Source: Gemmatimonadaceae bacterium (lineage in GTDB: Bacteria > Gemmatimonadota > Gemmatimonadetes > Gemmatimonadales > Gemmatimonadaceae). From it: a stretch of 39,857 bases of DNA. Shown in pieces: positions 36,559 to 37,049 of the stretch (positions are counted from its first letter, which is position 1; the number at the start of each line of letters is the position of its first letter). The notes below the pieces were generated by a model. It saw only the letters and a program-made list of their open reading frames with translations. It searched no databases and was not told where the DNA came from. The stretch lies in NCBI GenBank assembly GCA_035533015.1, contig DATLUQ010000059.1, forward strand, positions 1 through 39,857. Direction: 5' to 3'. The translations under genes and the position numbers were made by a program.

Positions 36559-36593
36559 GCGAACGCCCGCCGCAAAGAGCGGCGGGCGTTCGC
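36559..36593. terminator. Perfect 15-bp hairpin between the OMP gene and the convergent tRNA
   Basis: GCGAACGCCCGCCGC and GCGGCGGGCGTTCGC pair perfectly around loop AAAGA. It can end transcription of the plus-strand beta-helix/OMP operon and, from the other side, of the tRNA, whose transcript first meets CCTTTTC after its 3' end. Confidence 0.75.
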
Positions 36594-36665
36594 AGTTACA
36601 GCGCACCCGGCAGGTATGGAAATGGTATCCGTGCCTCGACACCGAGTCAAGCATTGAAAAGGCCG

Positions 36666-36749
36666 TGCCCGGAGCGGGACTCGAACCCGCACGCTCTTGC
36701 GAGCACGCACCTGCCGGGTGCGCATGTCTACCAATTCCATCATCCGGGC
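36666..36749 (-). tRNA. Class II (Leu-like) tRNA with abnormal anticodon loop
   Basis: An 84-nt gene that folds fully: acceptor GCCCGGA/TCCGGGC with discriminator A; T8 G9; D arm ATG/CAT with loop GAATTGGTAGA; anticodon stem CGCAC/GTGCG; long variable arm with stem GCTC/GAGC and GCAA loop; T arm GCGGG-TTCGAGT-CCCGC. The D-loop, long variable arm and A73 are leucine-type. By standard folding the 7-base anticodon loop is CCGGCAG. That puts C rather than U at position 33 and GGC (an alanine anticodon) at 34-36. Shifting the register to read CAG (Leu) would break an anticodon-stem pair (C30-C40) and put G at 33. CCA is not encoded. The structure is intact, so it is not simply decayed. Confidence 0.8.
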
Positions 36750-37049
36750 ACGTGTGCAAGAATGCTGGAATCCGGTCGACCACTCGGCAGGTATCTCCTC
36801 GCTACCTCGTGGCACAGCGTAGCTCGTGGCCGCAGGAGCACCATCATCCCCCGGGCGCTGGGCGGCGCAATCTATCGCGCGCCGCGGACCATCGGGGTCG
36901 CGGGAGCGCCCTTCGCTCGCGGCGCCCCGGTCCGGCGCGTACTTTAGATGCCGCCGAGCCCTTCGGCCTCCCTCTGCCACCGTCTCCCTCCCACCCGCGT
37001 GACCGGCCCGCCCCCATCGGATGCGTCGCGCCCGAGTAATCCGACACCC
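36750..37049. other. 300-bp region between the tRNA and the M14 gene
   Basis: No gene is supported. A small hairpin, AGGTA-n9-TACCT, occurs near 36790-36810. A possible -10 element TACTTTAG at 36940-36947, about 103 bp before the M14 start, resembles the TACTTTAC at 31096-31103 (minus strand) and the TAACTTTG at 26640; no matching -33 TTG at the right spacing is seen. Confidence 0.35.

Follow-up and report, generated by a model that had tools for sequence, protein, structure and literature searches.

The tRNA gene at positions 36,666 to 36,749 (minus strand) of the window, by which we mean the whole stretch of 39,857 nucleotides analysed here, raises the question of why an intact tRNA should join the body of one amino acid's tRNA to the anticodon of another. 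The window is the entire contig C59 of the source genome (G000; 3.03 Mb in 66 contigs) and ARAGORN calls a single tRNA in it, at 36,665–36,749 (−), with the anticodon GGC. The Rfam tRNA model RF00005 matches 36,666–36,749 (−) over its full length with 44.7 bits, the gathering score being 29, in a whole-genome search and a focused scan; the match is absent from the whole-window scan at the gathering threshold. The acceptor stem reads GCCCGGA/TCCGGGC, the D-loop GAATTGGTAGA and the anticodon stem CGCAC/GTGCG, the variable arm is long, position 73 is A and CCA is not encoded. Identity to the Leu tRNAs of the same genome is 0.81 for Leu-GAG and 0.77 for Leu-CAG, whereas normal non-Leu tRNAs reach at most 0.67. 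The class II variable arm, the Leu D-loop and A73 are those of a tRNA-Leu, but the loop CCGGCAG (C32 C33 G34 G35 C36 A37 G38) places GGC at positions 34–36, where a canonical tRNA-Leu has NAA or NAG. Nor is the body that of a canonical tRNA-Ala(GGC), which is class I with G3-U70; here it is class II and the 3-70 pair is C-G. The original prediction, that this is a Leu-type tRNA with a GGC anticodon and C33 in place of U33, is thus borne out by ARAGORN, by RF00005 and by the identities to Leu tRNAs, and its warning that the tRNA, if used, could mistranslate Ala as Leu stands, GGC being an anticodon that reads Ala GCC/GCU. C33 would weaken decoding in this copy.

Outside the window, the normal Leu tRNAs of the genome are complete (GAG, TAA, TAG, CAA and CAG) and normal Ala tRNAs (GGC, TGC and CGC) are also present, so that the full Leu set and the tRNA-Ala(GGC) which the original prediction had proposed to look for are both there. 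It was not known to that prediction that a second Leu-type GGC tRNA lies at G000:C17:4461-4544, with U33 and an anticodon stem unlike that of the window copy, nor that an antisense gene adjoins both copies.

It is this cognate antisense RNA gene that is the decisive feature of the locus. About 50 nt past the tRNA 3' end (position 73), and on the same strand, lies a predicted sRNA gene with its own promoter, TTGACT-N17-TACCAT (36,622–36,650, −), whose −35 box occupies 36,645–36,650 and whose −10 box occupies 36,622–36,627. The predicted 5' end of the sRNA begins just past the −10 box with the antisense stretch ACCTGCCGGGTGCGC (36,601–36,615, −), which is the exact 15-nt reverse complement of the stretch GCGCACCCGGCAGGT (36,709–36,723, −), that is, of the 5' strand of the anticodon stem and the entire anticodon loop, so that arm and antisense form inverted repeats about 100 nt apart. 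The sRNA is closed by a terminator-like hairpin with a 15-bp stem, GCGAACGCCCGCCGC-TCTTT-GCGGCGGGCGTTCGC (36,559–36,593, −), followed by a weak U-tract. A sequencing error in the loop, named earlier as a possible refutation, cannot account for the locus, because the neighbouring 15-nt antisense matches C33 too. The C17 locus has the same layout, with TTGACT-17-TAnnnT about 50 nt after position 73, the antisense TGTGCCTGCCAAGCAC and a GC-rich hairpin; the arms of the two copies differ and their antisense stretches differ in step, each being exactly complementary to its own arm. As judged by sequence, an antisense RNA gene adjoins the RNA with which it pairs, as in type I and type VIII toxin-antitoxin systems.

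We then looked for the same arrangement across the family (179 genomes) and the phylum (395 genomes), using as a pattern a Leu-type tRNA with a base other than A at position 35, supplemented by BLAST. The tRNA and an antisense occur together at 25 loci in 19 Gemmatimonadota genomes from at least four families, counts which are lower bounds because the pattern is strict. The Leu-type body, A73 and the long variable arm are found at every one of the 25 loci, A37 is nearly always kept, and the anticodons are GGC, GCG, GCC, CGC, GTC, GTG and GGT. A promoter of the form TTGAC-17-TAnnnT precedes the sRNA at nearly all loci, with at least eight hexamer matches at 17 of 25 (shuffled mean 0.7, maximum 4), and the antisense starts a few bases after the −10 box, forming the very 5' terminus of the predicted sRNA. 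The C33 to which the original prediction drew attention is real but is not the key to the locus, since 21 of the 25 loci have U33; in the four that have C33 (the window, G321, G275c and G070) the antisense has a G facing it. In eight elements (G321, G275a, G275c, G409, G046, G021, G040 and G070) the acceptor stem ends in a G1-U72 wobble.

Within the genus of the source genome, G002 carries an intact copy with a different arm and its own matching antisense, and contig C4 of the source genome holds two more copies, both degenerate, together with an sRNA remnant that has no tRNA. The 5' half of the tRNA is broken in both degenerate copies, one of which keeps an intact, matching antisense. In G255 and G014 the antisense covers a different region, beginning in the anticodon loop and extending into the variable arm, and pairs there over 20 nt with a few mismatches (duplex z −4.0 and −3.7); in G048 the tRNA is intact but the adjacent antisense no longer matches, possibly as a recently mismatched pair. 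The G048 locus (L228) has the Gly anticodon GCC, and its adjacent sRNA-like sequence fits a GUC anticodon better. Three Leu-type tRNAs with the Pro anticodon TGG (G420, G153 and G295) were excluded, having no convincing antisense, and G173 was excluded as not being a tRNA. Two of these TGG tRNAs, from two genera (L231 of G420 and L233 of G153), directly follow a terminator-like hairpin and are themselves followed by a short lysine-rich ORF; they are possibly mobile or prophage tRNAs.

That the sRNA belongs to the tRNA beside it is seen when partners are exchanged. Among the 21 loci with a standard antisense (G255, G014, G048 and the degenerate C4a lying outside this set), true arm-antisense pairs form Watson-Crick pairs at 306 of 357 positions, whereas permuting the partners 2000 times gives 166±11, with a maximum of 212; positions 28–31 and 39 show three or four pair types. 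Pairs within one genome are insulated from each other: the three pairs of G275 have duplex energies of −35 to −41 kcal/mol with their own partner and −10 to −26 kcal/mol when crossed, and for the window and C17 pairs the values are −37.5 and −42.4 kcal/mol against −20 and −23 kcal/mol. In genus g19, G275c has the same upstream M24-peptidase neighbour as G021 and the same downstream cyclase neighbour as G321, and the arms of G275c, G021 and G321 are GGAACCCGCGAAGTTCC, GGAGCCTGCGAAGCTCC and CGCACCCGCGAAGTGCG, all of them matched by antisense stretches of their own, so that arm and antisense here have apparently coevolved in place. Inverted repeats about 100 nt apart, with several copies in one genome, could also be the mark of a mobile DNA repeat whose symmetry has nothing to do with RNA pairing, but almost all loci have their promoter, start and hairpin where a transcribed gene would have them, the cloverleaf covaries, and the neighbours examined include no transposase and show no shared boundary. 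We consider such a repeat a most improbable source of the pattern.

The tRNA half is also under constraint. Among 17 elements 99.0% of cells in the stems are paired, 17 of the 24 pairs have changed on both sides, and the covariation score is 0.719 compared with 0.203 after shuffling; these relatives of the window tRNA thus have neither the degenerate stems nor the lack of constraint expected of pseudogenes. Decay or an assembly error might be thought of in a genome where two of the four copies are degenerate, but the window copy is whole, both the fold and the antisense have been kept from family to family, and the covariation refutes this explanation, to which we attach next to no probability. 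The window tRNA is neither an isolated oddity nor a pseudogene. The earlier view that it is not simply decaying therefore holds, and the relatives, in which a pseudogene or a standard Leu anticodon might have turned up, instead keep the odd anticodon in other copies and in a second species.

The controls lack such an element. The 118 viral Leu-type matches with odd anticodons include none with an antisense partner, their best score being 23.5 against at least 32 in the 21 standard elements, and among the 42 tRNAs of the source genome the two elements alone rise above the rest. Next in rank is Leu(TAA), whose score of 28 is explained by a second Leu-type tRNA in convergent orientation downstream of it. 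Past this tRNA-Leu(TAA) (L012, G000:C13 near 214212-214292), the opposite strand resembles the 5' half of a second tRNA-Leu(TAA). Searches of 199 genomes from another phylum, that of an alphaproteobacterial MAG (L066), and of 34 genomes of mixed phyla yielded no element. Matches from an exact-pattern scan of contigs were rejected: either they are palindromic insertions in tRNA-Leu genes from other phyla or they lie in unrelated DNA, and no element in register is among them. The palindromes, about 20 nt long (CTGCC...GGCAGGCAGG), are inserted immediately behind the D-loop GGTAGAC in tRNA-Leu genes or fragments, sometimes in several neighbouring fragments, in L059, L062, L064, L067, L070, L078, L082, L103, L127, L376 and L377, which belong to other phyla and in many cases to the Bacteroidota; they resemble a family of repeats by which tRNA-Leu is targeted or captured.

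The tRNA has an upstream promoter-like element of its own, in the window ATGATG-N20-TACGCT (36,816–36,847, −), and [AG]TGA[CT]-N20-TANNNT occurs in 7 of 23 elements, against a shuffled mean of 0.07; from this element a leader of about 60 nt is predicted. The 20-bp spacer, in the window as in the other loci among these seven, is unusually long, and spacers of this length are typical of MerR-type regulated promoters. In the window the leader contains, at 36,781–36,808 (−), a conserved stretch, GAGGTAGCGAGGAG, followed by a weaker second anti-anticodon-like stretch, TACCTGCCGAGTG. Leaders often hold such a stretch, for example TCGC in a hairpin loop in several GCG tRNAs and TCAC in a GTG tRNA, and the complementarity, compared with shuffled and swapped leaders, is of modest significance (chi-square 75.5 on 46 degrees of freedom). 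We regard it as suggestive.

What, then, might such a pair of genes do? Its architecture, pairing, coevolution and cloverleaf can be read directly from the DNA; for charging with Leu, transcription, silencing, toxicity and the role of the module we infer the following. The first gene would supply a Leu-type tRNA whose anticodon has been changed to that for a very common non-Leu codon, Ala GCC in the case of the window. Bacterial LeuRS largely ignores the anticodon. LeuRS has been described as tolerating anticodon changes, as do AlaRS and SerRS, but to a lesser extent (PMC11415595), and these tRNAs should therefore accept Leu whatever their anticodon. The free tRNA would then insert Leu at the corresponding codons throughout the proteome. 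From its sigma-70-type promoter the second gene would yield a short RNA, the first 15 or so nucleotides of which would anneal to that same tRNA at its anticodon stem and loop, covering the loop and one side of the stem and so blocking decoding, and the duplex would probably be exposed to RNase III. As long as the sRNA is made the tRNA would be silent; should its supply drop, the stable tRNA would be freed and mistranslation would follow.

The choice of anticodons bears on this directly. In the window the codons GCC, GGC, GCG, GAC and CGC rank 1, 2, 3, 5 and 6 in usage, and five of the seven anticodons (GGC, GCC, CGC, GTC and GCG) read codons of these ranks, so that Leu from the free tRNA would replace other residues at a large fraction of codons, which is what a toxin should do. 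Two other readings of the tRNA can be weighed against the same observation. The suggestion that it serves outside decoding, for instance as an aminoacyl donor for another pathway with the sRNA as a regulator, draws on C33 at 4 of the 25 loci; a donor requires no particular anticodon, yet common codons are read and A37 is nearly always kept, the loci have no neighbour gene in common, and C33 is the minority state. This role, like that of a specialised isodecoder, had been put forward in the original prediction; neither finds support here, and the donor we hold to be very unlikely. An sRNA whose true targets are mRNAs, with the tRNA arm as a decoy that sequesters it in the manner of the E. coli pre-tRNA spacers, would fit the seed-like position of the antisense at the extreme 5' end. 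A sponge would need no intact, covarying cloverleaf with A73 and a Leu body everywhere, nor anticodons for common codons, and a seed that changes from species to species in step with the tRNA would break a conserved set of mRNA targets, which leaves the decoy an unlikely reading.

We are somewhat more inclined than not to see an RNA-only module in which an antisense RNA silences a Leu-charged, mistranslating tRNA, most likely with the toxin-antitoxin-like logic of types I and VIII. The fuller proposition, a class of RNA-only toxin-antitoxin systems in which a Leu tRNA is re-aimed at the commonest codons, an antisense sRNA masks its arm, a leader hairpin possibly acts as a safety, and arm and antisense coevolve and become insulated, seems to us evenly poised. 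That the tRNA should break first, as in the one degenerate copy of the source genome whose antisense still matches, is to be expected if harm comes from the tRNA; it is the targeting of codons, the predicted block of decoding and this loss of the tRNA first that favour a toxin-antitoxin-like pair, regulated mistranslation being the chief rival. In the latter, a Leu tRNA for Ala, Arg or Gly codons would be freed conditionally to diversify proteins, to the benefit of the cell, and the sRNA would be the off-switch. Neighbours of the loci examined are unrelated housekeeping genes, with no neighbour gene shared across loci, and some copies look vertically inherited; G275c in particular shares its neighbours with G021 and G321 despite differing arms, which is consistent with long inheritance in place, and the actinomycete tRNA-ProX sets a precedent for mistranslation that is encoded (PMC11415595). 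(For the window itself, an empty-site comparison of its flanks with G001–G003 found the neighbours rearranged.) Substitution at the very commonest codons would be proteome-wide, anticodons differ among close relatives, and the patchy presence of the module (11 of 179 family genomes), with the tRNA lost before the sRNA, is more toxin-like, so that beneficial mistranslation appears possible but doubtful.

Several observations nevertheless sit uneasily with the toxin-antitoxin reading. The housekeeping neighbours and seemingly vertical copies fit regulation as well as addiction, and a strong toxin should not tolerate the mismatched antisense of G048 unless that tRNA is weak or silent. The terminator hairpin of the sRNA has little U-tract, and the simplest version of the proposal leaves the weaker anti-anticodon stretch of the leader unexplained.

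Known systems resemble the module in part. In type I and type VIII toxin-antitoxin systems the antisense RNA is encoded beside its target and paralogues are insulated, as here, but the targets are toxin mRNAs or small RNAs and not the anticodon arm of a tRNA. The tRNA-ProX of Streptomyces and Kitasatospora, which is encoded with ProRSx, has a Pro body with an Ala, Asn or Thr anticodon and A33, and mistranslates in E. coli (PMC11415595). It likewise joins the body of one amino acid to the anticodon of another and is atypical at position 33, but it differs in its Pro body, its A34, its co-encoded dedicated synthetase and its phylum, and no antisense RNA has been described for it; the present tRNAs have a Leu body and G34, and no synthetase is found among the neighbours examined. 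The nev-tRNAs of nematodes belong to class II (they have a V-arm), carry non-Leu anticodons and are charged with Leu in vitro, no mistranslation having been detected in cells; they share the class II body with a non-Leu anticodon, but are eukaryotic, have Gly CCC and Ile UAU anticodons and have no described antisense partner (PMC4300185). In CreTA, CreT sequesters rare tRNAs through a mini-ORF, and CreA, derived from a CRISPR repeat, guides the CRISPR effector Cascade and brings about transcriptional repression (PMC8501985). That system too consists of two RNAs and is toxic by way of decoding by tRNAs (a toxicity that we only propose here), but in the present case the proposed toxin is the tRNA itself and its partner pairs with it directly. 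Each of tRNA-ProX, the nev-tRNAs and CreTA thus has one trait in common with the module, and in none of them does a tRNA of swapped identity occur together with an antisense RNA dedicated to it, a combination of which we found no description in the open-access literature searched.

A two-gene arrangement whose halves change together across a phylum suggests, from its sequence, an undescribed all-RNA poison and antidote or an on/off switch for mistranslation. If this is true, a tRNA alone can serve a genome as a weapon: a few base changes in a tRNA, together with an anticodon-blind synthetase, would give a proteome-wide mistranslator that is held in check by a short antisense RNA. The missense tRNA would be a new toxin principle, and antisense masking of the anticodon a new form of tRNA control. 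It would also be a natural mistranslation switch in which at least seven anticodons have already been sampled, and it would account for the unusual surplus tRNAs for Ala, Arg or Gly that annotation reports in these genomes.
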